This document shows, piece by piece, positions 9,177-30,774 of a stretch of DNA of 33,452 nucleotides. How positions within the stretch are numbered: the first letter of the stretch is position 1; each line of letters opens with the position of its first letter. The notes under the pieces are model-generated. The model searched no databases and had not been told where the DNA came from. It saw only the letters and a program-made list of their open reading frames with translations. Made by a program: the position numbers and the translations under genes. The stretch covers positions 1-33,452 of the forward strand of contig JABIHC010000168.1 in the NCBI GenBank assembly GCA_018649825.1. Direction: 5' to 3'. The DNA comes from Methanobacteriota archaeon (GTDB taxonomy: Archaea; Thermoplasmatota; Poseidoniia; Poseidoniales; Poseidoniaceae).

Positions 9177-10994
9177 TCATTTTTTGTCAATGATTTGTTC
9201 AGTAATACATTGCATTGTACACTCTGGTGGACAATTGTCTTGACCCCAAGTAGCACATTTTTCTACGCGCATTGAGGGTGGGTTGCCTGGAACGAAAAGG
9301 AGATGTATTTCAGAATCAGTTCCAGTACTTGGGCAGTGAATATTTAGTGAGGGTAAAAAGGAACCACCTGGATCTTCTATCAATCTTGATATTTCCGGCG
9401 CTCTTCGATTCGTCATCCTCTTGATAACAAGGTGCATCCAAATTAAACAAGCAAATGTAATGACTGCAAATAATAACCACGTCATAGTCCAAAGCCCAGT
9501 CCATTTCAATAGATAGCCAAATACAACAGGGAGGATAAATCCGCCCAAGCCACCAAGCACACCAACAATTCCCCCTACAACTCCAACATCATTAGGGTAA
9601 TAGACAGGAATGTGCTTGTAAACTGCTGCTTTACCTATACCCATTGCCATACCTAATACAAAGACAAAGAATGTGAAAATCCAAATATTTGCTTGGAATG
9701 TAATGAGAGATATTCCTTTAGCAAGCAACTGTTTTCTTTCTATTTCATCATTTACTTCAACCACCGGTTCCTGCCAAGTATCAACTGTTGGAATCACTGC
9801 CATATCGTCTTCATTTAGTGAAGAGGATCCCTCTTCAATTCCTAAATAGTTGTAAATTGTTTCTTCGCCAGCAGGATCTAAGACAGTAATGGTGTAATTT
9901 ATTTCATCTACTTCAATTACTGTTCCTGCTCTTTGAGCTAGGACACCTTCTCCAGCAGAGGTTATTTCCATGCGCGGAGGGAGGAGGAGTATTGAAGAAA
10001 TCAAACATGCACCAAGTACCCAATACATCACTTTGCGCGCTCCGGCTCTATCTGAGAACCACCCCCCGAATGCGCGAATGACTCCCGATGGGAAACTGAA
10101 AATTGCAGTTAACATACCTGCAGTTCCTACGCTTAAGGTATAGACATTTACATAGTAAGGTACCAACCACTGCGCAAGAGCAACGAAGCCACCGAATACA
10201 AGGAAATAGTATAATCCAAATCTCCAAACTCTAACATCTTTTAGTGGAGACAATCTCTCTTGGAGTGAAAGAGTTTTTTCTTGCTTAACTTTGCGTTCAA
10301 ATGTGCCAACCCAGAAAATAATTGCCATTAATACTAATACTGCTGCATATAATTGGGGAAGTAATCTCCACCCCTCGATATTTGCACCATTGTCTGTAAA
10401 ATTATTCAATAGAATGGGGGCGAGAATAGAAGTAATTGCTGCACCGGCATTACCGGCCCCTAAAATACCAAGAGCAGTGCCCTGCCATTTCTTTTCAAAC
10501 CAGACAGATGTATAGGCAATTCCTACTGCAAAAGTTGAACCGCATAATCCAAATCCGAGTCCTGCGAAAAAGAAGCCCCAGAAAGAATCTGCTTTACTGA
10601 CCAAAAACATTGGAATCGCTGCAATAAGCATCACAATTGTGAACATTTTCCTTCCACCGTGAATGTCGGTTAACAGACCAACGGGTAATCGGAAAATTGC
10701 CCCAGTCAGAATAGGAATTCCAATTAACCAACCTATTTGTGAATTATCCCAATCATATGCACGATTTAATACAAGAAAGGTAATTAGAACGCCGTACAGC
10801 ATCCAGCAGGCAAAATTTAGAGTGAATGCAACAGTACTCAAAGTCAAAGCTCGATTCGCCCTACTTTTGGTGGCCTCAACCCCCACATAGGTTGGAATGT
10901 TCCCACTTTCCATGGTATTCGTGTATTTCGTATTACTAATAATGTTTACACCGTTTATGTAAGTCTCATCAAATTCATTGATAATTAGATGCAA
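9177..10994 (-). CDS. narK: MFS nitrate/nitrite transporter (NarK/NNP family) with a soluble insert and Cys-rich C-terminal tail
   Basis: LPVGLLTDIHGGRKMF, AFGGWFSDRAGARKVMYW, VGVVGGIVGVLGGLGGFILP (NNP-type glycine-rich signature); adjacent to the nar genes. Start may be internal. Confidence 0.85.
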   Translation of the reverse strand: MHLIINEFDETYINGVNIISNTKYTNTMESGNIPTYVGVEATKSRANRALTLSTVAFTLNFACWMLYGVLITFLVLNRAYDWDNSQIGWLIGIPILTGAIFRLPVGLLTDIHGGRKMFTIVMLIAAIPMFLVSKADSFWGFFFAGLGFGLCGSTFAVGIAYTSVWFEKKWQGTALGILGAGNAGAAITSILAPILLNNFTDNGANIEGWRLLPQLYAAVLVLMAIIFWVGTFERKVKQEKTLSLQERLSPLKDVRVWRFGLYYFLVFGGFVALAQWLVPYYVNVYTLSVGTAGMLTAIFSFPSGVIRAFGGWFSDRAGARKVMYWVLGACLISSILLLPPRMEITSAGEGVLAQRAGTVIEVDEINYTITVLDPAGEETIYNYLGIEEGSSSLNEDDMAVIPTVDTWQEPVVEVNDEIERKQLLAKGISLITFQANIWIFTFFVFVLGMAMGIGKAAVYKHIPVYYPNDVGVVGGIVGVLGGLGGFILPVVFGYLLKWTGLWTMTWLLFAVITFACLIWMHLVIKRMTNRRAPEISRLIEDPGGSFLPSLNIHCPSTGTDSEIHLLFVPGNPPSMRVEKCATWGQDNCPPECTMQCITEQIIDKK

Positions 10995-11006
10995 TTACTA
11001 TTACTG

Positions 11007-11720
11007 TTAAACTGCAGAATTCACCACATTATTGTCAATTACAATATGAGATGATTTATACTCAACAACATGATTTCCATCTTCTGTATGCAATAGGATG
11101 CCGGTAAATATTGCATAATCATCATCATTATTTCCAAGGACGCTCTCGGCTAATGAAATTAACTCCTTGTGAATAATTTCTTGTGTTTTTTGAGTTGTTT
11201 CATAGAGGTTTGGTGTGGCAATGTGCCATAATTTTTTTCTTACCCAGCCATATTCTATGTCATTATGAGCTGGTTCGGGCGCCTCAGATAGATTCGTATT
11301 TTCAACTTCATTTGAAAGCAAATCTAATGCTCCACAGGCTCTGCTAGTATTATTCAATCCGGGGCGAAATACATCGCCAAAAGTCCCATCATTTGCAAGA
11401 CCCATGTGAGCCAAGCCGACAAGTAATATTCGTCTTTTTCCATTTACAACTGGTGCATGGTGGCTTGCGGCAGTAAGTCCTGTTACTCCAGCAAAAGGCA
11501 ATCCTGCAAGCCCAGACAAATCAAAAGCCTCTCCCCATTCATTTTTCAATTGTGAAACAAAAGGCTGACAAAGTTCATCACGACAAATAGAAATACATGC
11601 TAAAGTAGAATCAGCATCAAAACCAAATTGGCCAATAAATTCTTTGATACGAAGTAAAAAGGAAGCGCTAGATTCTGTCTTTTCACGAAGATCAAATGTC
11701 ATCAATATTACCTTCTTCAA
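11007..11720 (-). CDS. LCIB-type (limiting CO2-inducible protein B/C family) carbonic-anhydrase-like protein
   Basis: ACISICRDELCQPF, FDLSGLAGLPFAGVTGLTAASHHAP, LVGLAHMGLANDGTFGDVFRPG, RACGAL resemble LCIB family motifs, including likely Cys/His/Cys metal ligands. Confidence 0.75.
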   Translation of the reverse strand: MKKVILMTFDLREKTESSASFLLRIKEFIGQFGFDADSTLACISICRDELCQPFVSQLKNEWGEAFDLSGLAGLPFAGVTGLTAASHHAPVVNGKRRILLVGLAHMGLANDGTFGDVFRPGLNNTSRACGALDLLSNEVENTNLSEAPEPAHNDIEYGWVRKKLWHIATPNLYETTQKTQEIIHKELISLAESVLGNNDDDYAIFTGILLHTEDGNHVVEYKSSHIVIDNNVVNSAV

Positions 11721-12349
11721 TGGAAACTAATAGGGCTATCTTCTTTCTTATTTTCAATATGACAGGTTTCGCAATCATCATCATGAGTTTCTTCTTGAAT
11801 AACTTCAGGAACTTCTTCAACTCCAGCAAGCCATTTCTGCAAATCAATTGGTGCAGATGAATTGAGTAGGTTGATTAATTCGGTTTGGCTTTCGGGAGTA
11901 ACCATGCTATCCACTGCCTCGTATAGGACACTCTCTTCTGCTTGATTGTGTTGTAGTAATATTCCCTCGAGTGCAGCAGGTAAAGTCGGGTCTACATCGC
12001 CCTTTTCGGCTAAGGTTAGTAAATCGTAAAGTAATTCTTGAATGGTGTGGTGCTCCTGCCTCATTATTACAGTCGGGCCTTCTTGGGTCATTCCAGTTAC
12101 TTGTTCAAATACTGGGAAAAGGTATTCTTCTTCCCAAATAATGTGTTGAATAAGCCCTGTTGCAAATTCTTTCAATAAATCAATTGAATTAGAATAACCA
12201 TTTTTTCTGCACTTATTGAAAATACTATCAAGTCGGCTATGGTCTTTTGAAAAAAAGGCCCGAAGGCCGGCATCATTGGTATCAGCCATAGTGGTCGCTC
12301 CAGCATTTTTCATTAAACCGTTTTGATTGACATGTATGATGTGAATCAA
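11717..12349 (-). CDS. Hemerythrin-like HHE cation-binding protein
   Basis: KDHSRLDSIF, HIIWEEEYLFPVFE, RQEHHTIQELL, LLQHNQAEESVLYEAVD. Start may be at an internal Met (MADTND). Confidence 0.85.
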   Translation of the reverse strand: MIHIIHVNQNGLMKNAGATTMADTNDAGLRAFFSKDHSRLDSIFNKCRKNGYSNSIDLLKEFATGLIQHIIWEEEYLFPVFEQVTGMTQEGPTVIMRQEHHTIQELLYDLLTLAEKGDVDPTLPAALEGILLQHNQAEESVLYEAVDSMVTPESQTELINLLNSSAPIDLQKWLAGVEEVPEVIQEETHDDDCETCHIENKKEDSPISFH

Positions 12350-12378: not shown

Positions 12379-14037
12379 CTAGCATGAAATTTCTGCACCC
12401 TTTCGGGCGTAATACCACCAGTTTACTCCAAGACAAGATACATAGTAAGCGGCAAAACCATACATCGCATATTCTGGAACTTTAGCAGCAATTGAAACAG
12501 CGAATACTGCAGGAATGATAAATGCCCCATATGCTGCGATAGAAGATGTCCACCCCAGTACTGGGCCAACCTGTTTACGAGGGAAAATAATAGCAATCAT
12601 TCGGAATGTTGAACCATTTCCTATACCAGTTGTAGTAAACAGAATCATGAACAGAATCATAAATGAAACGAAGTGATCTTCTGGAGTTTCAGATGCCTTT
12701 GCCTTTACGATAATTAGTCCTACACAAACAGTAGCAATAATCATCACCACAGTTGCCCAATGAGTTACTCTAGCTCCGCCCCACTTATCGGCCATCCAGC
12801 CACCAGGTGGGCGTAATGCCGCACCTACCAAAGGCCCGAGGAACCCAAAAGTAAGTGCTTGATCAACATACCAAGGGTTTGGGTCACCATTAGGGAGATA
12901 TCCGAATACATCAAGGATGAGTTTGGGGAAAACAGCAGCAAAACCAATGAATGAACCAAAGGTCATAATGTATAACCATGTCATCACCCAATTATGCTTC
13001 TCTCCAAATATTTTCCATTGGTCCAAAAGACTCTCCTTTACCGCACTAGGTGTGGCATATCGCATTAGGGCGAGTGTGGTTACCACAGAAACTAGGACCA
13101 TGATAATAATTTTCACAATACCCATGAAGGATGAATCAAAAATGTCACTATTGCGCGTGGCAAGCAATACTAAAACACCAACACCGGCAGCAACATAGCC
13201 AATTGCTTCAAGCCAAAAATATTTTTTCAGCGCATTTGGTGTGTTTGCTACGTCATGCTCTGGCATATTGTTCATCCATAGCCATGCGGCAATCATGAAA
13301 AAGGCGCATAAAGGCACCCACAATAATGCGGCATTGGCTACATAAAAACCACCTGCTGCCGCTCCGGACATCCCGCCGAAAAGGGTGAACCCCATTACTA
13401 TTGGAACCGTAAACTGCATTGCACTAACACCTAAATTTCCAATCCCTGCATTGAGGCCAAGTGAAAGGCCTTGCATCTTTCGTGGATAGAAAAAGGAAAT
13501 ATTAGACATCGAGGAAGCGAATGCTCCCCCTCCTACTCCGGACATTAATGCATAAACGATTAACACCGTGAAAGAAACGTTAGGGTCTTTTAAAGCGATC
13601 CCTGCTCCAATCATTGGTAGCATCAGCAACAGTGTTGTGGCAGCAATAACATTTCGTCCTCCGGATATTTCTATCATGAAGGAATTAGTGATACGAAAAG
13701 TCGCACCAGCAAGTCCAGCCACACCAGGGAGTATGTATAGAAGGGCCTTGTATTCATCCCCCAATAATCCACCCCATCCATCGAATGAGTATAGGGATGG
13801 GTCAACATCATGAATTCCCTGGATTTTTGTGATAATTACTCCCCATACCATCCAAATAGCAAATCCTAAAAACAAATTTGGTATGGATATCCACAAATTT
13901 CGTGTTGCTATTTTCTCCCCGTGCTTTTCCCAAAACTCTTCATCCTCTGGGTCCCAATAATCAAACTGAATTCCAGAACCTGGTTCCTTTAATTGGCTTT
14001 CAATCTTTTCAGCATTTTCAGGTTCCTTTACACTCAT
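12379..14037 (-). CDS. narK: Nitrate/nitrite transporter (NarK/NNP, MFS)
   Basis: Polytopic protein with ATFRITNSFMIEISGGRNVIA, SGVGGGAFASSMSNISFFYPRKMQGLSLGLNAGIGNLGVS, LRPPGGWMADKWGGARVTHW; directly downstream of narI. Confidence 0.93.
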   Translation of the reverse strand: MSVKEPENAEKIESQLKEPGSGIQFDYWDPEDEEFWEKHGEKIATRNLWISIPNLFLGFAIWMVWGVIITKIQGIHDVDPSLYSFDGWGGLLGDEYKALLYILPGVAGLAGATFRITNSFMIEISGGRNVIAATTLLLMLPMIGAGIALKDPNVSFTVLIVYALMSGVGGGAFASSMSNISFFYPRKMQGLSLGLNAGIGNLGVSAMQFTVPIVMGFTLFGGMSGAAAGGFYVANAALLWVPLCAFFMIAAWLWMNNMPEHDVANTPNALKKYFWLEAIGYVAAGVGVLVLLATRNSDIFDSSFMGIVKIIIMVLVSVVTTLALMRYATPSAVKESLLDQWKIFGEKHNWVMTWLYIMTFGSFIGFAAVFPKLILDVFGYLPNGDPNPWYVDQALTFGFLGPLVGAALRPPGGWMADKWGGARVTHWATVVMIIATVCVGLIIVKAKASETPEDHFVSFMILFMILFTTTGIGNGSTFRMIAIIFPRKQVGPVLGWTSSIAAYGAFIIPAVFAVSIAAKVPEYAMYGFAAYYVSCLGVNWWYYARKGAEISC

Positions 14038-14074: not shown

Positions 14075-14776
14075 TTATCTAATCCAACGACCTTGTGAAC
14101 GTATTGAAATGAATGGGCGGGTGATGTATAGGAATGGATAACTCCACATGTGAACCATCTTTGTAAAAGGAACATAGCAGAGAAATAGCATGCTGGAAAC
14201 TATGTGGACTTGAGTCAATAGAGGGGCATTCGCCATTCCTGAAGCATCAGGAGAGAAAGTGAGAATTGATTCAAGCCATGGGAATACAGTAGAGGACATC
14301 CCCCAAGTAGCATCAATAATAACTAGCCAAAGTGAAGATGAAACTGCCGTAATCAATAATATTAGAATTACATAATCTTCAACTTTACTCATTACCTTTA
14401 CTTCTTTAATAAATATTCTGCGGTACAATGCTGCAACTAATCCGTATAGAAGCATTAATCCTCCTGCCATTCCAATCCAAAGGAAATAATCAATCAGGAT
14501 AACTGGCCCCCAAAGAGCACCAATTATTCCAAGGAATAAGTGTCCAAATATAACTAATACTAGCCCCCAGTGTAAAGCTAAAGCGGCCATACCCATAGAT
14601 TCTCTACCAAAGAAACCGCTTGGGCGTGGAGTCCACTCAAAGTCTCCTCTTGAAGACCAAGACCAATGTCCTTTGAATGCTCGCCAAATTGGAGCAAAAA
14701 TAAATAGCAGTATGGTAATATAAGGCATGGCTACAAAAAACAATTCAATCCAATTCATTTTACTCATCTCCTTCAT
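14075..14776 (-). CDS. narI: Respiratory nitrate reductase gamma subunit (cytochrome b)
   Basis: Polytopic protein with conserved His (ALHWGLVLVIFGHL, VHIVSSMLFLCYVPFTKMVHMW); follows narJ. Confidence 0.92.
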   Translation of the reverse strand: MKEMSKMNWIELFFVAMPYITILLFIFAPIWRAFKGHWSWSSRGDFEWTPRPSGFFGRESMGMAALALHWGLVLVIFGHLFLGIIGALWGPVILIDYFLWIGMAGGLMLLYGLVAALYRRIFIKEVKVMSKVEDYVILILLITAVSSSLWLVIIDATWGMSSTVFPWLESILTFSPDASGMANAPLLTQVHIVSSMLFLCYVPFTKMVHMWSYPFLYITRPFISIRSQGRWIR

Positions 14777-15374
14777 TTGATTTTACTATATTTTCGCTTT
14801 CCATCAGCACCGCAACTGCTGCGGTAATGTGTGACCAAGGTTTCTTGTTTAACTTGTGGCTAAATTTTGGTAAGTGTGGTTTTACCATTGAATTGATAAA
14901 ACCTCTTCGTAGATTGCGTGACTTTGGATCTGTTTCAGCAAGTGAAATTGCCAAAAATTCACAAACGGCCGGGAAATAGTCTGGCATTTCGCCATGTTCC
15001 ATTTTTATTCCATAATGCTTGTATACGCCCGCTATTTCAATCATGTACATATTTCGCTCACTTGTACCAATTTCACCACAAGACTTTGGCGCATCAAATC
15101 CATAGTACCCAAGGTATGGTGGGGCTGTTGGCGTCATTTCAAGAGTAAAGAGATGGTCCTCTTCTTGAATGGCCCACAGTTTCTTGTGAAACATTTCAAA
15201 ATGCTCAGCAATATCTGATCGACCAGCCTCTTTCAATGATTCGCAGAGGTTAATAATTCTAGTATTTGTGGATTCTTCATCCATTTGTGAAGGGCTGATA
15301 AATAATACCGAGGCCAATAGATACGAATCTGCCAATATCTCTTCTGGCAATTGTTTGGATGTTACTGGCATCAC
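14760..15374 (-). CDS. narJ: Nitrate reductase chaperone NarJ (TorD-like)
   Basis: Position between narH and narI; helical protein of 204 aa containing EMTPTAPPYLGYYGFDAPKSCGEIGTSERNMYMIEIAGVYKHYG. Confidence 0.88.
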   Translation of the reverse strand: MMPVTSKQLPEEILADSYLLASVLFISPSQMDEESTNTRIINLCESLKEAGRSDIAEHFEMFHKKLWAIQEEDHLFTLEMTPTAPPYLGYYGFDAPKSCGEIGTSERNMYMIEIAGVYKHYGIKMEHGEMPDYFPAVCEFLAISLAETDPKSRNLRRGFINSMVKPHLPKFSHKLNKKPWSHITAAVAVLMESENIVKSNEGDE

Positions 15375-16919
15375 TTAAATCACCTGATCTCCCTGTTCAT
15401 CAATGTGCATGTATTCTCTTCTCTTCATCTTTAGAGGGTTCATCTTGTCAAATCCAGCAAAGCCTCTTTCCATGAATGGGCTTGTGTCTCTGTCGAGTTC
15501 GCGGTGGGTTGTTGGTACAATGAATCTTTCATCAAGGAAAGCCAAAGCGAGTAAGCGATGGATGTCTATTGCATCTTGTTCCGTCAATCCGACTGCCTTG
15601 AGAATTTCAAGATCAGGTTTTCCTTCAACACGTACGCTACGACGATATTTTCGTACTGCGAGTTGCTTCAACAAGGTATTCTCAACTTCACTAATGTTTC
15701 CAGCAGAGAATAATGAAGCCAAATACTTGATTGGCACTCGGAAGTTTTCTAATGTTGGTAAGACTGAGTTTTCACCTGCTGCAGAGTGGAGGCCATTGTC
15801 ATCAAGAACAGATGCAACTGGACTTTCTGGTGGGATGTAGAATAGACTTGGTACTGTTCTGAACTCAGGGTGAAGCGGTAATGCAATTTCCCATTTTACG
15901 AACATAGGATAGATTGGGGATTTTTGTGCCGCTTCCATGAATGTTTCGCCAATACCTTGCTTCTTTGCTTGAGCAATAACCTCGGGGTCATTTGGATCAA
16001 GTAGAATGCTGCGGTGAACTGCGACGAGATCTTTTTCATCTGCGGTTGCTGCTTCAACGACTCTATCTTGGTCAACCAATATTGGTCCCATATAACGTAT
16101 CTTGCCAGGGCAAGAGTGGAAACATGCAGGTGGTTGTCCAGTTTCAAGACGTGGGTAACAGAGGAGACACTTCTCCATTTTTCCAGATCTCCAATTGTAA
16201 TATGGCTTTTTGTAAGGGCAAGCAGATACGCAGTATCTCCAACCTCTACATCGGTCTTGGTCAATCAAGACAACGCCATCTTCTTCGCGCTTGTGTGCTG
16301 CACCTGATGGGCATGCACCTACACAAGCCGGATTAGCACAGTGGTTACAGATACGTGGCAAGTAAATCATAAACGAATCTTGATATTGTAAGTAAGCATC
16401 CTTTTCTTGTTGATTCATGCTATCGAAGTTTACATCCCATTGCCCGGTTACATTTGTTCCAGCAGCATTGTCTTCCCAATTAACACCCCAATTTGGCTTG
16501 ATGTTTTCTTCGCCAGTAATTTCAGACTTTGGTCGTGCAACTGGTTGTTGCTTCATTTCCTTTGCAGAATGTAAGTCTTCATAAGTGAATGTGTAGGTTC
16601 CAACATCGCTTACATAATCTTTCATTTCAGGTTGATCAGGGTTGTAAAATAAATTAGCTAATTCTAACCATTTTGGAGCAACTCGCAACTTCAATGGAGA
16701 ACTCTTTTTGCCGGTTAATACCCATCCGCCTTTCCACTCATCTTGATTTTCCCATTCTTTGGGATATCCTATGCCTGGTTTTGTCTCAACATTATTCCAA
16801 AACATGTATTTTGCGCCTTCACGATTTGTCCAAATATTCTTACAGGCTACGGTACAAGTGTTGCACCCTAGACATTTATCCATGTTGAATACCATTGCCA
16901 TTTGTTGTACTATTTGCAT
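15375..16919 (-). CDS. narH: Respiratory nitrate reductase beta subunit
   Basis: CLGCNTCTVACKNIW, CNHCANPACVGACPSGAAHKREEDGVVLIDQDRCRGWRYCVSACPYKKPYYNW, KCLLCYPRLETGQPPACFHSCPG. Confidence 0.97.
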   Translation of the reverse strand: MQIVQQMAMVFNMDKCLGCNTCTVACKNIWTNREGAKYMFWNNVETKPGIGYPKEWENQDEWKGGWVLTGKKSSPLKLRVAPKWLELANLFYNPDQPEMKDYVSDVGTYTFTYEDLHSAKEMKQQPVARPKSEITGEENIKPNWGVNWEDNAAGTNVTGQWDVNFDSMNQQEKDAYLQYQDSFMIYLPRICNHCANPACVGACPSGAAHKREEDGVVLIDQDRCRGWRYCVSACPYKKPYYNWRSGKMEKCLLCYPRLETGQPPACFHSCPGKIRYMGPILVDQDRVVEAATADEKDLVAVHRSILLDPNDPEVIAQAKKQGIGETFMEAAQKSPIYPMFVKWEIALPLHPEFRTVPSLFYIPPESPVASVLDDNGLHSAAGENSVLPTLENFRVPIKYLASLFSAGNISEVENTLLKQLAVRKYRRSVRVEGKPDLEILKAVGLTEQDAIDIHRLLALAFLDERFIVPTTHRELDRDTSPFMERGFAGFDKMNPLKMKRREYMHIDEQGDQVI

Positions 16920-16924
16920 CTATT

Positions 16925-19900
16925 TCACTCTCCCTTCAACTTGTGTAGGTCTTTTTCTTCGTAGATTACCTTGCCTTCAACAAGTGGCATCTTACGAACT
17001 ATTACACCCATATCTCTTTCTGATGGACTTGGTCCTTGATAATTAACAAAGTAAGTGAATTGGGCATATCCACCAATCATACAATTTGGATTCATCATAA
17101 CTCTTGTTGGAGCATTGTTTCCTCCGCCTCTTAAGTCGGTTGCGCCATATTTCTTCGCAAGTGGCGAGAAAGGAACATTCACGTGACGTTCATTTTGGTG
17201 ATATACAATACACATTTCTTTCTTTATTGTGTGGCTGACAACTGCTCTAGCAACTTGAATACCATTATTGGTGAATATTTCTACCCAGTCGTTATCAACA
17301 ATGCCGATTTCTTCAGCATCTTCGTTATTTATCCAGCAGAGTGGGCCGCCGCGGAATAGATTTGTCATTTGCCATGTGTCGCGGAAATTTGAGTGGATTT
17401 GCCACTTTCCGTGTGGTGTAATGAAACGAAGTAACTTACCATGTCCATTTTCCAATTCTTCCATTGGCAAGTCACCAATTGCAACTGTATCTACTGGTGG
17501 TTTGTATGTTGGCAAGGCTTCTCCGAAGTCTCTAAATCCTTGATGATCAAAGTAAATCGCTTGACGCCCAGTTAGTGTGTGCCATGGTTTTAGCCTCTCA
17601 ACATTCATTGTCCAAGGAGCATAGGTTCTACCTGGGTCTTCTAGAGCACTCCAGTGAGGAGATGTAATAGATCTTCGTGGTTGGCTTGAAAGGTCTTTGA
17701 ATGAGTGAGCGATGTCTAATTCACCTTCAACCATATCTGCAAGCGGTAGCCCTACTCTCTTCTCTAGTTCTTTGAAAATTGCGTGTGATACTTCTCCGTC
17801 ACTTTCAGGAGATATTCTCAATATTGTTTCAGCAACTTGGGCTGCACTTGAGATATCTGGGCGGCCATCCTTTTCACCAACTTGGCGATTTTCCATGAGA
17901 GCCTCATAGGTTTCAGTTAGGTCGAAGTTAATCCCTTTCGCTCCATACCCATTAGGTTTACATCCAAGGGGTCCAATGGTGGTTAACATGTCATATAGTT
18001 TGGAGAAATCTCTCTCAACAATTTTTACATTGGGGAAAGTCTTTCCAGGAATTGGATCACATTCTCCACTTCTCCAGTCTTTGATTTCGCCCAATGGCTG
18101 TGCCATTTCATCGGGCGTATCGGTTTCTAATGCAGTTAGAACAACTTCCTTTACTGGTCCGTCAAAGAATTCACCAGACATTTCTGAGAATTTCTTACCC
18201 AAAAATTTGAATGCTTCCCAATCGGATTTACATTCCCATGGTGGGTCATGTGCTGGGTTGAATGGATGGAAGAATGAATGCAAGTCAGTACACGTCAAAT
18301 CGTGCTTTTCATACCAGTGAGCAGCAGGTAGGACCACATCAGCATAATTTGCAGTTGAGTCCATTCTGAGGTTCAATGAAACGACAAGGTCTAACTTACC
18401 AACGTCAACTTCTTCGTGCCACTTTACATTCTTGATCATCTTGTGTGAACGCTCGCCACCCAATACATTATCGTGTGTACCGAGTAAGTATTTTTGCCCA
18501 TATTCTTGCCCGCGAGTGCTTGTTCCGAATAAATTTCCACGCCAAATTGTTAGTACCTTTGGATGGTTTTCCTTTGCATCAACATCTGAAAGTGCAAAAT
18601 CCATTTTTCCGTCTTGGAATTGTTTTGCAACCCATGCTGATACCTCTGCATCATCCTTACAACCGGCATCTACCGCTTGCTGATATACATCTACTGGATT
18701 CTTCTTATCGAATTGTGGATAGAATGGTAACCATCCATTGCGAACTGCAAGGTGATTAATGTCAGCAGAATGATTTCCGAATCTCTTCAAATTGTTAGCA
18801 TTAGAAGCCCAAAGAGAATCTAGAGGCATTCCATCATAGCGCCATTGATCTGTGTGAAAATATTGCCAAGAAGTACTGTTGGCTTGGCGTGGTGGCCGGT
18901 ACCAATCTGTGGCTCCTGCTAACATACCAATTGCTGCATAGTTACGGATTTTTTCCGTTCCAACATAACTGCTGAATCCCCCGCCATTGCGTCCACAGCA
19001 ACCACAAATGAGTGCCATGATTGCTTGGGCGCGGTATATAGAGGGTCCACCATGGAACCAGTGTAAGATTCCAGAGCCAGTGATGAATAATGACTTTCCA
19101 TGCGTCTTTTCAGCGTTTTCAGCCCATTCGCGTGCAACGCGGATAGCCAAATCTCTGCTGATACCGGTTTCCTTTTCTTGCCATGCAGGAGTGAAGGGTT
19201 CATCAGCATCATCGTAGTCCTTAGGATAATCTCCACTCATTCCACGAGAAACACCAAATTGGGCCATCATTAGGTCAAATACAGTTGTAACCAATTGCTT
19301 CCCATCTTTGGTTTCCACTTCGTATGCAGGGACTCCTCTTATTCGGTCAATTGCTTTATTTCCAGTAGTCCCGGTTTCTCCGAGTTCCAAAAAGGTGTCA
19401 GTAAAGTCGGGGAATGCGACCTTTACTTCTTTAGAATCTTTGTTGTCAATGAAAGAGAGTAGTGGGTCAAATTCTTCGCCAGTTAATGAGTCTTCGTGAG
19501 TCAAATTCCAACGACCCATCTGTTCTTCTTCCCAGCGGTGCCCTAGTGTTCCCATTGGGATTTTCAATTCACTATTAGCGGAATCCAATTGTAATGGCTT
19601 CCATTCGCCCTTTTCTTCTCCCTTAAATGTTGCAACATCTGATGCGCGGAGTAATCTACCATTATGATACACATCCTCTCCCTTATCGAGCATTACGAGG
19701 AACGGCATATTGGTGTATTGCTTGATATAATCAGTGAAATAACCTGATTTGCGTTCGTGGTGGAATTCCTTTAGAATAACGTGAATACAAGCATTGAGGA
19801 AAGCATTATCTGTACCTTCTTTTACTTGAACCCAAAGGTCAGCAAATTTTGTAACGTCAGAGTAATCGGGGGATAGATTAGTGATCTTTCCGCCGTTATA

Positions 19901-20695
19901 CTTGTGCTCTGAAGCAAAGTGAGCGTCGGGTGTTCTTGTCATTGGCAAATTTGAGCCCATGACAATCCAGTATGTGCTTTGATACCAATCTGCACTCTCA
20001 GGTACATCGGTTTGGTCTCCCCAAATCCAAGGCATTATGTGAGGTAGGTCGTGATACCATTCATAGAACGATAGCATTGAACCGCCCATTAATTGGTTAT
20101 ATCTTTGACCTGACGTGAATGAAACTTGACTCATTGCAGGAATTGGTGAGAATGCCGCAATATGATCTGGTCCGAACTCATCAATAGTATGAATCTGTCC
20201 AGCAGCAATTATTTCTGCTGCATCATCCCAAGTAATTCTTTTCCAACCTGCCTTTCCACGCAGACCCTTGTATGATTTAGCCTTCTCAGGGTCACCAACA
20301 ATTGATGCCCATGCTTGAATTGAAGTCATTCCTTTGTTTTTTGCAGCAGTGTAGTAATTCCATAATCGTCGGCGAACATATGGGAATTTTGGCCGAACGG
20401 GTGAATATGGATACCAGGATGCGGAAATACCTCTTTGGCAACCACGTGGTTCGTAATTTGGCGTTTCATCATTTATTTGTGGCCAATCTACCTTTTGTAA
20501 TTCCCAGCAAATAATTCCATCTTTTACGAAAACTTCCCAGCTACAGGAGCCAGAACAATTGACACTGTGGCTGGTTCTTACTGAGTAATCGTGTGCCCAG
20601 CGGTCGCGGTAGAATTTTTCCCAAGTTCTTGATTCGCTTGCTTTCTTAAACCAAGTAAAGCGTCCATTTTTGTTGTCATTTTCCATCATATTCAC
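16925..20695 (-). CDS. narG: Respiratory nitrate reductase alpha subunit, molybdenum bis-MGD, without Tat signal
   Basis: HSVNCSGSCSWEVFVKDGI, NYEPRGCQRG, FSPIPAMSQVSF, WGDQTDVPESADWY, GSNLPMTRTPDAHF; closely follows the membrane-bound NarG pattern; N-terminus MNMMENDNKNGRFTWFKK lacks a twin-arginine signal. Confidence 0.97.
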   Translation of the reverse strand: MNMMENDNKNGRFTWFKKASESRTWEKFYRDRWAHDYSVRTSHSVNCSGSCSWEVFVKDGIICWELQKVDWPQINDETPNYEPRGCQRGISASWYPYSPVRPKFPYVRRRLWNYYTAAKNKGMTSIQAWASIVGDPEKAKSYKGLRGKAGWKRITWDDAAEIIAAGQIHTIDEFGPDHIAAFSPIPAMSQVSFTSGQRYNQLMGGSMLSFYEWYHDLPHIMPWIWGDQTDVPESADWYQSTYWIVMGSNLPMTRTPDAHFASEHKYNGGKITNLSPDYSDVTKFADLWVQVKEGTDNAFLNACIHVILKEFHHERKSGYFTDYIKQYTNMPFLVMLDKGEDVYHNGRLLRASDVATFKGEEKGEWKPLQLDSANSELKIPMGTLGHRWEEEQMGRWNLTHEDSLTGEEFDPLLSFIDNKDSKEVKVAFPDFTDTFLELGETGTTGNKAIDRIRGVPAYEVETKDGKQLVTTVFDLMMAQFGVSRGMSGDYPKDYDDADEPFTPAWQEKETGISRDLAIRVAREWAENAEKTHGKSLFITGSGILHWFHGGPSIYRAQAIMALICGCCGRNGGGFSSYVGTEKIRNYAAIGMLAGATDWYRPPRQANSTSWQYFHTDQWRYDGMPLDSLWASNANNLKRFGNHSADINHLAVRNGWLPFYPQFDKKNPVDVYQQAVDAGCKDDAEVSAWVAKQFQDGKMDFALSDVDAKENHPKVLTIWRGNLFGTSTRGQEYGQKYLLGTHDNVLGGERSHKMIKNVKWHEEVDVGKLDLVVSLNLRMDSTANYADVVLPAAHWYEKHDLTCTDLHSFFHPFNPAHDPPWECKSDWEAFKFLGKKFSEMSGEFFDGPVKEVVLTALETDTPDEMAQPLGEIKDWRSGECDPIPGKTFPNVKIVERDFSKLYDMLTTIGPLGCKPNGYGAKGINFDLTETYEALMENRQVGEKDGRPDISSAAQVAETILRISPESDGEVSHAIFKELEKRVGLPLADMVEGELDIAHSFKDLSSQPRRSITSPHWSALEDPGRTYAPWTMNVERLKPWHTLTGRQAIYFDHQGFRDFGEALPTYKPPVDTVAIGDLPMEELENGHGKLLRFITPHGKWQIHSNFRDTWQMTNLFRGGPLCWINNEDAEEIGIVDNDWVEIFTNNGIQVARAVVSHTIKKEMCIVYHQNERHVNVPFSPLAKKYGATDLRGGGNNAPTRVMMNPNCMIGGYAQFTYFVNYQGPSPSERDMGVIVRKMPLVEGKVIYEEKDLHKLKGE

Positions 20696-20700
20696 CTCAG

Positions 20701-21399
20701 TTAATATTCTCCTCTTCTTCCACGGCCTTTCTTGTTAATGAAGCCCAGGTATGTCAAAATAATCATTAGTGAAACTGAACCAAGAATAATCGCATCTTGG
20801 GTCCAATCTGGCACATCAAGTCGTGCCTCGCCTTCTATCGCAGTTTGGTCAATGGACCCATCTGCGTGTAGGAAAAAGGTAGCCATATTCCAGTCATCAT
20901 CATCTGTCATTTGGCCATCTCCATTTACAGAGTTTACTCGTAGATTGAACTGTGCATCATCGGTAGAATCTGCAGTCCAATTTATTTGCCAAGTGCGTTG
21001 ATCGTTTCCAGAAGTAGAGTGTGTCGCTTCATCTCCGGCGCCGTTTACTAAAGTATTATCGTCGGCACTTGCAATTTCTCCACTGTTTACATCAAGTAAG
21101 AATCCACCACTATTACTGCCGCCAACTGCGGGTCCGCCAGTTAGGCTAATCTCAAGAGTGTAAGTCGAACCTGCAACAATTTCTTGTGCCCCACCTACTA
21201 AGGTGATTGCAGGTATTACTGAGGAATCCGATACTACGCCGTGACATGTGCAACCATCTCCTCCTGAACCGTCTGCGCTCAGGCCATTGCCCCCGCTGTA
21301 CCCACTTGTTAGTGGAGTGAATAGCAATAATGATAGTGAAAATACTATCAAAGCCGAAGTCGTTTTTCGTGAGTTATTGTTCTTTTTTTCTCCAGCCAT
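20701..21399 (-). CDS. Secreted/membrane-anchored protein with CxCH motif, Reeler/choice-of-anchor-like beta domain and C-terminal TM helix
   Basis: N-terminal signal-like TSALIVFSLSLLLFTPLTSGYS, GGDGCTCHGV, beta-rich Gly/Ser/Asp region, C-terminal DAIILGSVSLMIILTYLGFINKKGRGRRGEY. Confidence 0.7.
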   Translation of the reverse strand: MAGEKKNNNSRKTTSALIVFSLSLLLFTPLTSGYSGGNGLSADGSGGDGCTCHGVVSDSSVIPAITLVGGAQEIVAGSTYTLEISLTGGPAVGGSNSGGFLLDVNSGEIASADDNTLVNGAGDEATHSTSGNDQRTWQINWTADSTDDAQFNLRVNSVNGDGQMTDDDDWNMATFFLHADGSIDQTAIEGEARLDVPDWTQDAIILGSVSLMIILTYLGFINKKGRGRRGEY

Positions 21400-21714: not shown

Positions 21715-23091
21715 TTAGACTTGGGCGAAAGTTGCGGTGAAATGACGCAAGAACTCTGGCGCTTCAACAATCTTCACTCCATTGATTTTGGTAGAGTTTT
21801 GTGCAACTTTCGCCATTGTATTGACTACATGTTTAAGATGACTTTCCGTATAAGTCCGCCTCGGTATTGCAAATCGCACTAACTCCAAAGGAGGATAAAT
21901 AATTTCGCCGGTATCTGGGCGTGTGTGTGCAAGCATAACAGAACCAACTTCGACACCCCTAATTCCTCCTTCAATATAGGCTTCGAGTGATAAAGCCTGA
22001 GCGGGGAATTCGCTTGCCGGAATATGAGGTAACATTGCACCCGCATCGATATAAACAGCGTGGCCACCAGGTGGGCCAACAACTGGCACCCCATTTGCAA
22101 CTAGCCCCTCGTATAACCAAGCAACTTGTTCGGTCCGATATTTTAGATAAGATTCATCACAACCTTCCTGAAGTCCGACTGCCATTGCATCAAGGTCTCT
22201 TCCAGCCAATCCCCCATAGGTAGGAAAGCCTTCGCGCATAATCAATTCATTTTTTGCCATTTTAAATAATTTCTTATCATTGAATAACAATAATCCGCCA
22301 ATGTTTACAATTGCATCTTTCTTTGCGCTAAAAGTAGCTCCGTCAGCGAGTGAAAACATATATTTTGCAATATCCTTTACACTCCATGAAGAATATTTTT
22401 CTTCTCTTAACTTTACCAGCCATGAATTTTCTGCAAAGCGGCAGGAATCAATGAATAATGGCTTATCAAATTCATCACATATTTTGCGAATACCTTCAAT
22501 GTTTTCAATTGAAACCGGTTGCCCTCCCCCTGCATTATTTGTTACAGTCACCATACAAAATGGGACATTATCTCCCTCTTCTTCGAGTAAGTGACGTAGT
22601 TTTTGAAGATCAACATTCCCTTTAAATGGATGATTTGAATTTGGGTCCCCTCCCTCTTCAATTACTAGATTTACTGGTACGGCATTTCTTGAGAGGATAT
22701 TAGCAGCGGTTGTATCGAAGTGAGTGTTGGAAGGAACAATATTATTGTCCTTTAGAGTAATTGCAGCAAGAATGCCTTCAGCAGCCCTACCTTGGTGGGT
22801 TGGCAGAAAGTAATCAAATCCAAATATTTCTTCAACATTTTTTTTAAGTCTGCGGAATGAACGTGCACCAGCATATGATTCATCGCCGCGCATTAATGCT
22901 GCCCATTGTTCTGAACTCATCGCTCCAGTACCTGAATCTGTAAGAAGATCGATCATTACTTCATCTGAAGTGAGGTTAAACAAATTATTGCCCGCCCTAT
23001 TGCAAGCCTCCTCTCTTTCCTGACGAGTGGTAATTGTAATATGCTCTATTGATTTAATTCGAAAAGGCTCAAAGGGATGTTTTTTTATCAT
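21715..23091 (-). CDS. tnaA: Tryptophanase-like PLP beta-eliminating lyase (tryptophanase/tyrosine phenol-lyase family)
   Basis: EPFRIKSIEHI, DLLTDSGTGAMS, PTHQGRAAEGIL, DSCRFAENSWL, SAKKDAIVNIGGLL, EGFPTYGGLAGRDL, RFAIPRRTYT, LRHFTATF. Confidence 0.85.
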   Translation of the reverse strand: MIKKHPFEPFRIKSIEHITITTRQEREEACNRAGNNLFNLTSDEVMIDLLTDSGTGAMSSEQWAALMRGDESYAGARSFRRLKKNVEEIFGFDYFLPTHQGRAAEGILAAITLKDNNIVPSNTHFDTTAANILSRNAVPVNLVIEEGGDPNSNHPFKGNVDLQKLRHLLEEEGDNVPFCMVTVTNNAGGGQPVSIENIEGIRKICDEFDKPLFIDSCRFAENSWLVKLREEKYSSWSVKDIAKYMFSLADGATFSAKKDAIVNIGGLLLFNDKKLFKMAKNELIMREGFPTYGGLAGRDLDAMAVGLQEGCDESYLKYRTEQVAWLYEGLVANGVPVVGPPGGHAVYIDAGAMLPHIPASEFPAQALSLEAYIEGGIRGVEVGSVMLAHTRPDTGEIIYPPLELVRFAIPRRTYTESHLKHVVNTMAKVAQNSTKINGVKIVEAPEFLRHFTATFAQV

Positions 23092-23100
23092 TGTTTCACC

Positions 23101-23859
23101 TCATAATAATTGCCCGCCATCAACCGGAAGAACTACTCCAGTGATGTGGTGTGCTAAATCTGAAAGTAGGAATACGGTTGCACTTGCAATTTCTTCCGGT
23201 TCTGCAATTCTATCATCTAAGGTATCTGCTATAGCATTATTTAAAATGTACTCCGGTAGGTTCTTTGCCATTTCAGTATTGACCATTCCTGGTGCAACTA
23301 CATTGACATTTACTTTCCAATGCCCAAGATCTTTTGCAGCGGATTTAGCCAAACCAATCATTCCTGCTTTGGAAGCCGAATATGCGGATTGACCAAACTT
23401 TCCGCGAATTCCATTGATAGAAGATATACAGACTATACTGCGGTTTTTTGGCTCCTTTCTTGCATACTTGGCAAATTCTCTAATTGTGTTCATTGCACCC
23501 GTTAGATTCACTGAAATTACTTTGTTCCAATCATCATCTTCCATTTTCCAAATTACTCCATCAGCAATTGTTCCGGCATTACAAATAACATAGTCCAAAC
23601 CCCCCATTTCTGAAATCACTTTTTCAATCATTTCAATAGTGCTTTTTGAATCACTTGCATCGCAACTCATGTCAATGAAAGGTACGTTTGCGTCTTCTAA
23701 TATTTTTCGAGTAGCTAATGGCTCTTCTTCAAAAGGCGCCCAAGTAAATGCTACAGATGCCCCAGCAGCTGCTAATTTTGCACAAATCGCCTGGCCAATT
23801 CCTCTGCTTCCACCGGTAACTAATGCTACCTTTCCTTCCATATTGATTTCAATACTCAA
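23101..23859 (-). CDS. Short-chain dehydrogenase/reductase (FabG-like), possibly 3-hydroxyacyl-CoA dehydrogenase of the pathway
   Basis: TGGSRGIG cofactor motif, NAG, YSASK catalytic motif, PVDGGQLL C-terminus. Confidence 0.9.
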   Translation of the reverse strand: MSIEINMEGKVALVTGGSRGIGQAICAKLAAAGASVAFTWAPFEEEPLATRKILEDANVPFIDMSCDASDSKSTIEMIEKVISEMGGLDYVICNAGTIADGVIWKMEDDDWNKVISVNLTGAMNTIREFAKYARKEPKNRSIVCISSINGIRGKFGQSAYSASKAGMIGLAKSAAKDLGHWKVNVNVVAPGMVNTEMAKNLPEYILNNAIADTLDDRIAEPEEIASATVFLLSDLAHHITGVVLPVDGGQLL

Positions 23860-23889
23860 AATAATCTCTCCATTTTTTCAATAATAATT

Positions 23890-25023
23890 TCAATGTGGTG
23901 GCATTAGGCTTTCAACAAATTCTTTTGACCAATTTTCACCATTTGCAATTGCTTGCCTTAGAGCGATGAAATCTATTTGTCTTGGCGCGCGACTACCGTC
24001 GGGTTGAACTTTACCACCGACATTAAATGCTCTAAATCCAGCAGCAGCCTCCACAGCCATATTCAATGCAAGCCATTCGCGGTTGGTTTCTCTATTTGCA
24101 TCCCACCAATGTAGTTTCTTCTTTCTTACACTGGAAAGGGTTTTGCGTGTACATCCAGGGAATGTATTTGCTAGGCTCCAAGATAATTTGCAAACTGCCT
24201 CATCCAATAATGTGGTGTCAACAGTACAAGATGCCATTATTTCTTTGCCCTTACTTTTTGCATCTCCTTCAAGGAAATCGCCGTAGGTGAGGCTTCCGGT
24301 TTTTTCATCAACCCAACTCAAGTTTACCATTGGATTGGCCACCCATTCGCCTTCAGGGTTTTTGAGAACTGGAACGATTTCATTTAACAATCCATAACGA
24401 TGAGCCTTGTGAGCTGACCAGTGTTCGCAAAGGATACAAGATTCCATTGAGCGAGCAAAACCGACGTATAGGTCAAGGAAATCTGTTGAGCCCCCGTCTG
24501 GTGCTGAACCATGCTTTGGTCCGGCTTGTCCGTATCTTGCCATATCTGAAGAAACGGTAAAGTCGCATGCAAGGCCCATTTCCTGACCACCTGCAATTCT
24601 CATTCCATTGACGCGATTAATAACCGGCTTTTCATTTTCCAATATTAATGAGATCATGCGATTAAATACGGCCATATAGGTGCGGTATTCTTGAGGCCTC
24701 CAAGAATAATCTCTTTCGTATTCAACGGTATTTCCGCCTGTGCAGAATGCTTTTTCTCCAACGCCAGTTAAGATTACGCAATTAACATCGGGACGGGATG
24801 ATGCCCAATCTAATGCTAAACATAATTCCCTTAGGCTAGCGGTGGTATAGGAATTGTATTGCTCGGGGTTATTTAGCCAAATCCAAGCATCAAATAATCC
24901 TTCAATTTCTTCACCGTTTGGTTTTTGTAAAGGTTTTAATTCAACTATTAACTCCTTTAAATTTAATTCTCCGTCCATTGCATGTCTTCGCCAATCTGTA
25001 TACTCTTCGCTCATTTTCTTCAC
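23890..25023 (-). CDS. oah: 6-oxocyclohex-1-ene-1-carbonyl-CoA hydrolase
   Basis: 377-aa crotonase-fold protein with the Oah/BamA-type long N-terminus (DWRRHAMDGELNLKELIVELKPLQKPNGEEIEGLFDAWIWLNNPEQYNSYTT) and RIAGGQEMGLACDFTVSSDMARYGQAGPKHGSAPDGGSTDFL. Confidence 0.9.
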   Translation of the reverse strand: MKKMSEEYTDWRRHAMDGELNLKELIVELKPLQKPNGEEIEGLFDAWIWLNNPEQYNSYTTASLRELCLALDWASSRPDVNCVILTGVGEKAFCTGGNTVEYERDYSWRPQEYRTYMAVFNRMISLILENEKPVINRVNGMRIAGGQEMGLACDFTVSSDMARYGQAGPKHGSAPDGGSTDFLDLYVGFARSMESCILCEHWSAHKAHRYGLLNEIVPVLKNPEGEWVANPMVNLSWVDEKTGSLTYGDFLEGDAKSKGKEIMASCTVDTTLLDEAVCKLSWSLANTFPGCTRKTLSSVRKKKLHWWDANRETNREWLALNMAVEAAAGFRAFNVGGKVQPDGSRAPRQIDFIALRQAIANGENWSKEFVESLMPPH

Positions 25024-25031
25024 CTCATTAT

Positions 25032-25616
25032 TTATTCAATTGAATCTACTACTTCCCTCATTGAGAGAATCATATTATGGTATTTTGAACTAGTTTTTTC
25101 TCCACCAAGTGACATCTCTGTTTCATCATAAATAGAATTTAGATTTTCTTCATCTTCTCTGCTTATCATTGATTCACCCATTGGATATAGAATATTGTTC
25201 TCCTTGTGAATGTGCATCCTTAAACTGGAAGAATATTCGTTATATGCAGCAATTACTTTTGCCATATTATTTTCCTCAAGGCCCTCATTCATCTGGCCAA
25301 GTAATCTCCTAAATGTTTCATGGTCATGTAGCATCACCGCAATAGGTCCATATTCTAAGGATAAACCTCTTTGACATAGTAGGGGGAATAATACACCTTC
25401 TTCTTTGGCGTGATGGAAACCATCGGTATATTCCTTGGTGAAATCTATTAGATTTTCCCAAATTGAATTTGGCACATTTGAACCAGACATTACCATGCTG
25501 GCTGCTTTGTCACAAATATCTAGACCAATGCAAATTAATACATGCTCGTCGACAAGCCTTCTCGTACTGTGATTCATCGCTTTTAATCCTCCTACATTTT
25601 TCAACTTACTCACCAC
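25032..25616 (-). CDS. Hemerythrin-like HHE domain protein
   Basis: LVDEHVLICIGLDI, FHHAKEEGVLFPLL, LHDHETFRRLL, MHIHKENNILYPMGE. Confidence 0.85.
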   Translation of the reverse strand: MVSKLKNVGGLKAMNHSTRRLVDEHVLICIGLDICDKAASMVMSGSNVPNSIWENLIDFTKEYTDGFHHAKEEGVLFPLLCQRGLSLEYGPIAVMLHDHETFRRLLGQMNEGLEENNMAKVIAAYNEYSSSLRMHIHKENNILYPMGESMISREDEENLNSIYDETEMSLGGEKTSSKYHNMILSMREVVDSIE

Positions 25617-25629
25617 TAATCCTCTTCAT

Positions 25630-26709
25630 TTAATAATCGGGCACCAAGATAATTCTCTTTGCACAGCACCCATCATGTACCTGCGTAAACACTTCACCAA
25701 TAGTTGAAAGTGGACGTTGTTCAGTCGTGGATTCTAAGTCAACTCCCCCTTCTAATACATGTTCGAGTAAACTGTGATATAATTCGGGTTTGCAGCCCCA
25801 ATTGCCTATTGCTTTAGCATCATGTGCCATTAAATTAGAGAGTCTAATAGTAACTTTGCCCATAGTAAAACCAACTACTGATAGCACACCGCTTGGCCCA
25901 ACCAATTCAAATGCTAATGTTTGCCCATTTGGATGTCCGCTACATTCAAAAATTCTCCAACCGCTTCTTTTCCATGAATTATTCTTTACAATCTCTTTCA
26001 CTTGTCCTTTGATTTCGCGGTTATCAAGTTCTGCGGTAACAATTGTATTTTCTATTCCAAGTTCCTTTAATCCATTTAGACGCTTTTCATCAATATCAAG
26101 ACAGATTACATTTGCGCCAATTGATTTTGCCAGTTGGGCACAATACCCTCCAACCCCACCGCATCCAACAATAATCGCAACATCTCCGAAGGATAATTGA
26201 CTTCTTTCAATTGCTTGCCAAGGGGTACTAACTGCATCTGCAATTACTGAAAGGGAGGCCAGGTCGCCTTCAAAGGATGTCGGCACCTCAACCATCCAAC
26301 GGCTTGGGACCACGATATGTGTTGCAAATCCACCATCAATATCATTGCCCGGCATCACTTGCGTTCTGCAAACATTGCTGCGGTCATTATTACAATCATC
26401 GCATTCACCACATGGTAATACTGCAGGAATAATTACTCGCTTGCCCATCCATTGTTGTGCGCTACCGCCAGTTGCAATTACAACACCTGATATTTCATGC
26501 CCCAGAATTAGAGGTAAATCGTGCTTTGTTCGCACACCATCATAGTGGAATGAAAGGTCGGTGTGGCATACACCACAACCAGCAATCTCAACAACCAATT
26601 CGTCACTGGAAAGTGCATTGGTGTCAATGGTCCATTTTCGTTCCTCGGGTTTTTCACCAACTTTGACCAATTCCCAACCAGTTGCCTCGATATTTGTCAT
26701 TTTATTCAT
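25630..26709 (-). CDS. had: 6-hydroxycyclohex-1-ene-1-carbonyl-CoA dehydrogenase (zinc alcohol dehydrogenase family)
   Basis: GCGVCHTDLSFHYDGVRTKHDLPLILGHEISGVV, PCGECDDCNNDRSNVCR, GCGGVGGYCAQLAKSIGANVICLDID; located between dch and oah. Confidence 0.88.
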   Translation of the reverse strand: MNKMTNIEATGWELVKVGEKPEERKWTIDTNALSSDELVVEIAGCGVCHTDLSFHYDGVRTKHDLPLILGHEISGVVIATGGSAQQWMGKRVIIPAVLPCGECDDCNNDRSNVCRTQVMPGNDIDGGFATHIVVPSRWMVEVPTSFEGDLASLSVIADAVSTPWQAIERSQLSFGDVAIIVGCGGVGGYCAQLAKSIGANVICLDIDEKRLNGLKELGIENTIVTAELDNREIKGQVKEIVKNNSWKRSGWRIFECSGHPNGQTLAFELVGPSGVLSVVGFTMGKVTIRLSNLMAHDAKAIGNWGCKPELYHSLLEHVLEGGVDLESTTEQRPLSTIGEVFTQVHDGCCAKRIILVPDY

Positions 26710-27502
26710 CCCCCGCGGATTTTCCGGTGCGATCTAGTTTCCATTCCGGTCTTCGCTTTTCAAGGAATGAAGTCAAGCCTTCAAAATAATCTTTATTTTC
26801 TATCAAATCAGTAATGAATCCTTCACCCATTACTCGATGCCCTGGATTGGTTTTTCCATTTTGGATATTTCTAAGATGGGCTAGAGTAAGAGAAATGATG
26901 TTAGGTGGATTTCGCAAAATAGGTTTAAGCATATTATTGGTCGTTTCACGCATTTCTTCTCTGCTAGAGATTTTATTTGCTAGCCCAATTTCGTATGCTC
27001 TTTCTCCAGAAATCATTCTTCCACTTAGGATAATTTCTTTAGCAATTCTCATTCCAACTGCATTTGGCAATTGCATCATTGCAAATGGTGGATAGCAGCC
27101 AACTGTGACTTCTGGTACACCGATTTTTGCATCTGATGTAGATATTAAGAAATCACAAGCGAAAGCCAATTCCGCTCCGCCACCCAAACAAAGCCCATGT
27201 ACCTCAGAGAGAGTAATTAGAGGGGTTTCCTGTAATCTTTCTAAAATACAAGTCATTTGTTCAATCATTGAAGATGCGACTTCTGGTAGGTGCTCTTCGA
27301 TTGATGCCCCTGCGCTGAAACCCTTTTCTCCTGCAGAATAAAGAACCATTGCTCTAATTGAAGAATCTTGCTCAATAGTATCAATAATTTGGCATAATTT
27401 ATCCAATACAGGAGCATCAACGATGTTCACTGGTGGGTTGTTGATACAGACATAAGCCGTGCTGTTTTCAACGAATAATTCTACCAGTGCCCCACTCATC
27501 AT
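26702..27502 (-). CDS. dch: Cyclohexa-1,5-diene-1-carbonyl-CoA hydratase (enoyl-CoA hydratase family)
   Basis: Crotonase fold: GFSAGASIEEHLPE, EVHGLCLGGGAELAFACDFLISTSDAKIGVPEV; overlaps had by 8 bp; pathway context. Confidence 0.85.
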   Translation of the reverse strand: MMSGALVELFVENSTAYVCINNPPVNIVDAPVLDKLCQIIDTIEQDSSIRAMVLYSAGEKGFSAGASIEEHLPEVASSMIEQMTCILERLQETPLITLSEVHGLCLGGGAELAFACDFLISTSDAKIGVPEVTVGCYPPFAMMQLPNAVGMRIAKEIILSGRMISGERAYEIGLANKISSREEMRETTNNMLKPILRNPPNIISLTLAHLRNIQNGKTNPGHRVMGEGFITDLIENKDYFEGLTSFLEKRRPEWKLDRTGKSAGDE

Positions 27503-27514
27503 ACCAGCCCCGTT

Positions 27515-27868
27515 CTATGCAATACCCTCGCCTTCACCTTTTCTGTCCCGAACATCTTCGGCCGTGTTGCCAGTTTTAGCAGGAATCGTAAATGTTGAAT
27601 TATCTTTTTGTGATTTGCTTTCTTGATCTAATTTTCTCGTCCAAACAGTTCTGAGTTCATCTCCACACTCTACTAGACAGGTGTCACAATTTTCTGTATT
27701 TGAAAAATTTTCAACATTTATTTGCGAAATACGAACTTCTTCTCCCATCTCCTCAAATAGGATTTTTATTTCCTCAACTCGATCAGTACTAATGGTGAAT
27801 CTATGAATCCATCCTTCGCTATCGGTATTACCATCATCACCATTCTTCACAGAAAAACAATTACTCAT
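27515..27868 (-). CDS. Uncharacterised 117-aa protein in the benzoyl-CoA reductase operon
   Basis: Start overlaps the end of the upstream BcrD-like gene; contains ENCDTCLVECGDELRTVW; co-directional. Confidence 0.65.
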   Translation of the reverse strand: MSNCFSVKNGDDGNTDSEGWIHRFTISTDRVEEIKILFEEMGEEVRISQINVENFSNTENCDTCLVECGDELRTVWTRKLDQESKSQKDNSTFTIPAKTGNTAEDVRDRKGEGEGIA

Positions 27869-30765: not shown

Positions 30766-30774
30766 AATATCGCC

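Follow-up and report, generated by a model that had tools for sequence, protein, structure and literature searches.

The window analysed here, a stretch of 33,452 nucleotides from a 2.0 Mb genome (G000) that is 85% complete, carries a nitrate respiration island on its minus strand, and within this island lies a gene of the LCIB/LCIC carbonic-anhydrase (CA) family (11007–11720, minus strand, intact ORF of 237 aa). In line with the sequence-only reading, the gene is surrounded by a nitrate respiration cluster: narGHJI occupies 14075–20695, and the operon order along the minus strand is narG, narH, narJ, narI, narK2, hemerythrin, LCIB and narK1. Both narG (16925–20695; TIGR01580, 1397 bits) and narH (15375–16919; TIGR01660, 659 bits) score over their cut-offs, while narJ (14760–15374) and narI (14075–14776) match PF02613 (2.5e-6) and PF02665 (3.8e-41). 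The two NarK-like genes between which the LCIB gene had been placed are also found. They encode nitrate/nitrite MFS transporters of the NarK2 type (12379–14037; NarU model, 3.6e-78, below the curated cut-off) and of the NarK1 type (9177–10994; TIGR00886, 3.9e-56, only 191 bits compared with a curated cut-off of 311.7). A hemerythrin HHE domain protein (11717–12349; PF01814, 8e-13) is encoded directly upstream of LCIB, and NarK1 follows directly downstream after 12 nt (about 60 nt in a second genome, G031). Two traits of NarK1 itself look unusual for NarK: a long insert in the second half of the protein and a C-terminal tail rich in Cys (CATWGQDNCPPECTMQC). G031, G548 and G571 have NarK1 orthologues of about the same length. 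Just upstream of narG, a choice-of-anchor V domain protein (20701–21399, minus strand; NF041895) is kept in all four nar islands.

Across 11007–11720 the frame of the plus strand is full of stops, and the LCIB gene is read from the minus strand. Its start may be a TTG at 11720 or, alternatively, an ATG six codons in, at 11702, which is preceded by AAGG at a distance of about 8 nt. With the TTG start, the gene overlaps the hemerythrin gene by 4 bp, as first described; with the ATG, the two are separated by 14 nt. In G031 they overlap by 1 nt (TAATG). All motifs from which the family had been recognised are present, namely CRDE (C46), GLAGLPFAGVTG, AHMG (H105) and ACGAL (C129).

Profile searches and structure prediction confirm this family assignment. 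PF18599 (LCIB_C_CA) matches with 146.3 bits (curated cut-off 25; E 1e-42), covers profile positions 5–209 of 223 and is the one family that Pfam gives the protein, with no match to the classical beta-CA profile PF00484 (Pro_CA) in the same Pfam search. Using phmmer against PDB sequences, we found LCIC (5b5x, 1.2e-22), LCIB (5k5w, 2e-21), PtLCIB4 and two more LCIB-domain proteins, and nothing credible outside LCIB-type proteins. AlphaFold2, run with a 14-sequence alignment and with the metal left out of the model, yielded an LCIB fold (mean pLDDT 90.6, pTM 0.89). A Foldseek search of the PDB with this model gave eight matches at E<0.001, all of the LCIB family (TM 0.68–0.82); PtLCIB4 came first (E 7.7e-19, TM 0.82), LCIB-family structures were the only ones at E<1e-10, and classical beta-carbonic anhydrases ranked next (E 0.006–0.06; CaNce103p 5.6e-3). 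By profile, fold and active-site residues, the window protein is a genuine LCIB/LCIC-family carbonic-anhydrase homologue.

Six active-site residues are invariant in an alignment of 14 prokaryotic homologues and are also present in the aligned algal sequences: C46 (CRDE; codon 11583–11585), D48 (11577–11579), H88 (SHHAP; 11457–11459), H105 (AHMG; 11406–11408), R119 (11364–11366) and C129 (ACGAL; 11334–11336), all on the minus strand. We propose C46, H105 and C129, all of which are kept, as zinc ligands 1 to 3 of a Cys-His-Cys metal site, and D48 as catalytic Asp of a C-x-D arrangement as in beta-CAs. This assignment is based on spacing and beta-CA topology: in the model, H105 would sit on the strand before C129, like the His of the beta-CA HxxC. 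H88 was first assumed to be a zinc ligand because of an H88A PDB entry. However, the spacing of H88 and R119 equals that of His162 and Arg194 in LCIB, which leaves C46, H105 and C129 as the metal site. H88 was dropped as a ligand because H105 fits the beta-CA topology and because a review of structural work (PMC5876011) names His162 and Arg194 of Chlamydomonas LCIB as residues of the active site for which the structures show disorder. From the conserved residue set we infer that the window protein binds zinc and catalyses CO2/bicarbonate conversion.

Chlamydomonas LCIB and LCIC (PF18599; 5k5w, 5b5x) belong to the same profile family as the window protein; some 200 aa can be aligned at about 30% identity, and the CRDE, SH(S/H)xP, PH/AH, RPG and ACGAL motifs are shared. 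In the tree (drawn open), the two archaeal LCIB proteins are joined with a support of 97/97 and fall inside an LCIB/LCIC-type clade together with Actinomycetota and Chlamydomonas proteins (94/93). Unlike its algal counterparts, the window protein is archaeal, has a length of 237 aa and is encoded in a nar operon, without plastid or pyrenoid context; no pyrenoid is expected in an archaeon. Diatom homologues have been described as active CAs. Among the theta-CA/LCIB homologues of diatoms, PtLCIB4 (5b5y) provides the best fold match and has the same active-site set, but a strongly supported split (100/97) separates it, together with the Armatimonadota copies, from the clade of the window protein. 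For the classical beta-CAs (PF00484) the fold likeness is at the edge of significance; the Cys-x-Asp and His...Cys logic of the metal site is shared, whereas the proposed His and Cys ligands are 24 residues apart in the window protein in comparison to 3 in the classical enzymes.

Within the phylum, LCIB was found in two of 390 genomes, G000 and G031. Of 319 genomes from the order, four have full-length narG (G000, G031, G548 and G571), and searches of the nar-bearing G548 and G571 detected no LCIB. Consequently, every LCIB of the sampled phylum lies within a nar island, yet only half of the nar islands have LCIB. In our collection the order comprises two families, which fits Poseidoniales (Marine Group II); the window's genome belongs to one (f1) and G031 to the other (f2). 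The neighbourhood survey thus places LCIB close to nar and on the same strand in two genomes from different Poseidoniales families. Gene order in G031 is identical to the window, with identities of 91% for NarK2, 82% for NarG, 77% for NarI, 69% for NarK1, 62% for NarJ, 60% for the hemerythrin, 45% for LCIB, 42% for SDR and 41% for HHE2. The same island in G548, from the genus of G031, contains 117 bp in place of LCIB. One piece of these 117 bp matches the first ~50 nt of LCIB in G031 with a local score of 47, whereas 2000 shuffles reached at most 32 when compared with the first 100 nt and at most 45 when compared with the entire gene. A second piece, not significant on its own, aligns just past the G031 LCIB stop codon. 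This deletion scar indicates that the common ancestor of the G031 and G548 islands had LCIB and that G548 then deleted it, which rules out an independent insertion in G031; the placement beside nar is of shared ancestry. In G571 the nar block is rearranged and without LCIB. Algal contamination is ruled out by the archaeal operon, the synteny in a second MAG, the monophyletic archaeal pair (97/97) and the GC content, which at 0.38 is slightly under that of the other measured genes (0.39–0.43). The association of LCIB with nar is therefore real but narrow, and LCIB is an accessory part of the island, as it was lost in one relative. Islands with the same narGHJI genes and the same kind of NarK transporters are known from Marine Group II, where nitrate reductase with NarK was described in three MAGs of the genera O3 and Q1 and attributed to horizontal transfer (PMC6461757). 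Carbonic anhydrase, hemerythrin and benzoyl-CoA are not mentioned in the main text of that study, and as far as our searches reached, the nar-island context is previously unreported for the known LCIB family.

Regarding function, we regard it as most likely, with a probability of about one half, that LCIB is a cytosolic zinc enzyme of the LCIB/LCIC type with a beta-CA fold, which accompanies the nar genes in their Marine Group II island and hydrates respiratory CO2. The CO2 released when organic matter is oxidized with nitrate would be converted by LCIB to bicarbonate and a proton. The bicarbonate could then feed carboxylases, whereas the protons would help to replace those cytosolic protons that are used by NarG and by proton-linked nitrate/nitrite transport. 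NarG is well established to consume protons in the reaction NO3- + 2H+ + 2e- -> NO2- + H2O, in a known topology. Hydration would accordingly be the presumed direction of the reaction, and a CA role in nitrate respiration would be the most economical one. The window's genome has no match to PF00484, PF00194 or PF00132 (beta-, alpha- and hexapeptide-type CAs) and G031 has none to PF00484 or PF00194; within a completeness of 85–88%, and with the iota, zeta and delta classes outside the search, these two genomes may have no recognisable CA other than LCIB. PF00484 and PF00194 are also missing from related genomes without nar and from relatives that have no LCIB, among them G011, whose genome is a single contig, so that the lineage is not generally dependent on these CA classes.

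The strongest evidence against a CA role is the loss of LCIB in G548 together with the reported inactivity of Chlamydomonas LCIB/LCIC. Since LCIB is deleted in G548 and absent from the nar-bearing G571, nitrate respiration does not need it. The Chlamydomonas proteins were reported to lack CA activity in vitro, for which the disordered His162 and Arg194 are a possible reason (PMC5876011). Both points would also suit an LCIB-fold protein without CA activity that drifts as a silent passenger on a horizontally moved island, as would the 45% identity of LCIB between G000 and G031 against 91% for NarK2 and 82% for NarG. We nevertheless find such a passenger doubtful: despite this divergence both archaeal copies retain six of six active-site residues and an intact reading frame, and other accessory genes of the island are equally divergent (HHE2 41%, SDR 42%).

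Besides hydration of respiratory CO2 in the cytosol, LCIB might, by analogy to algae, work together with the adjacent NarK1, or with a bicarbonate-moving relative of NarK1, and supply bicarbonate or protons at the membrane. The model for such a partnership is the pairing of algal LCIB with LCIA, a NAR1-family channel, or with bestrophins: a complex of LCIB and LCIA/NAR1.2 has been reported (PMC7215798), and algal bestrophins belong to the same CO2-concentrating mechanism (PMC6708349). The close spacing of LCIB and NarK1 in the window and in G031 is consistent with this idea, and so are several bacterial neighbourhoods. PF18599 is rare in the prokaryotes sampled (8 of 397 Actinomycetota, three of 151 genomes of the Armatimonadota phylum, none of 14 control genomes). 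An alignment query of genome contigs recovered six loci, G031 itself among them, whereas a single-sequence scan of these contigs, tblastn against plasmids and a scan of viral contigs found no LCIB relatives. In two Actinomycetota (G703, G647) LCIB lies directly beside an Mrp/NuoL-type antiporter operon, at opposite ends (L047, 370–9038; L048, 8579–16904). In two others, G756 and G606 (L045, L046), it stands after a Na:sulfate-type symporter gene and before a universal stress protein gene, and in G1031 (L050, 8075–9822, minus strand) it lies between a bestrophin gene (PF25539), which it abuts, and a gene for a TMEM175-type channel. The remaining bacterial copies are near purine, tryptophan/histidine or thiol-redox genes. 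These transporters fit a CO2/bicarbonate/proton role, and the adjacency is of interest because of the identity of the partners, given those of algal LCIB. It is suggestive only and could be due to chance, as a transporter neighbour in four of nine distinct contexts corresponds to p = 0.03–0.27 for assumed backgrounds of 15–30%. Moreover, G548 and G571 keep NarK1 although LCIB is missing, hence NarK1 does not need LCIB, and NarK is an MFS protein whose fold is unrelated to LCIA. Taken together, we consider a partnership with NarK1 unlikely.

A general association of LCIB with nar across bacteria was also rejected, as no nar or NarK orthologues are found near the bacterial copies, only a weak MFS match and, in L047, a NarH-like ferredoxin subunit. 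For LCIB beside the Mrp/NuoL-type subunits of L047 and L048, the DAB/DAC complexes (beta-CA-like DabA with NuoL-like DabB; PMC13144422) can serve as an analogy only: LCIB is a protein other than DabA, its neighbours here are subunits of Mrp, and a partner of this kind is missing from the window. Quite improbable in our opinion is the broader idea that LCIB proteins of prokaryotes act in general as CAs dedicated to ion transporters of the membrane (bestrophin, Mrp, anion symporters, NarK), in which case archaeal LCIB and NarK1 would form a nitrate-uptake/bicarbonate unit as the counterpart of algal LCIB–LCIA/bestrophin for anaerobic respiration instead of photosynthesis. G647 also contains a second, broken-looking LCIB copy (L072, 4190–4739) with two PF18599 pieces in different frames, flanked by two universal stress protein genes.

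Work on LCIB proteins has been confined almost entirely to those of algae, whose part in catalysis is a matter of dispute. The archaeal and bacterial homologues beside nar, bestrophins and Mrp antiporters represent small and simple versions for addressing both CA activity and the link to transporters, and could settle whether the LCIB fold is a true carbonic anhydrase that cooperates with membrane transporters. If the proposed hydration of respiratory CO2 is correct, it would add an inorganic-carbon or pH function to the nitrate respiration of abundant ocean archaea.

That LCIB instead serves the carbon metabolism of the island, with decarboxylations and carboxylations linked to a benzoyl-CoA pathway, is very unlikely: bcr/had/oah/dch-like genes do follow on the same strand beyond narG (21715–31962) in the window, G031 and G548, but LCIB is about 10 kb away from them, on the NarK1 side of the island, they are kept in G548 despite the loss of LCIB, and no carboxylase was found in the block. 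This block for benzoyl-CoA ring reduction, shared by the three genomes, is an observation in its own right and possibly more interesting than the LCIB gene. It contains had (TIGR03201, 421 bits, over the cut-off), oah (448, just under the cut-off), a dch-like gene, two activase ATPases and bcrB/bcrC-like subunits under their cut-offs, and includes a tryptophanase and a second hemerythrin. Judged from these gene assignments, it suggests anaerobic degradation of aromatic compounds coupled to nitrate in Marine Group II, for which we found no paper describing such a block. A tyrosine phenol-lyase was considered as a phenol source for a carboxylation role and was rejected, because the enzyme encoded at 21715–23091 aligns as tryptophanase-like (D, V) at the positions that we take to discriminate between the two enzymes.
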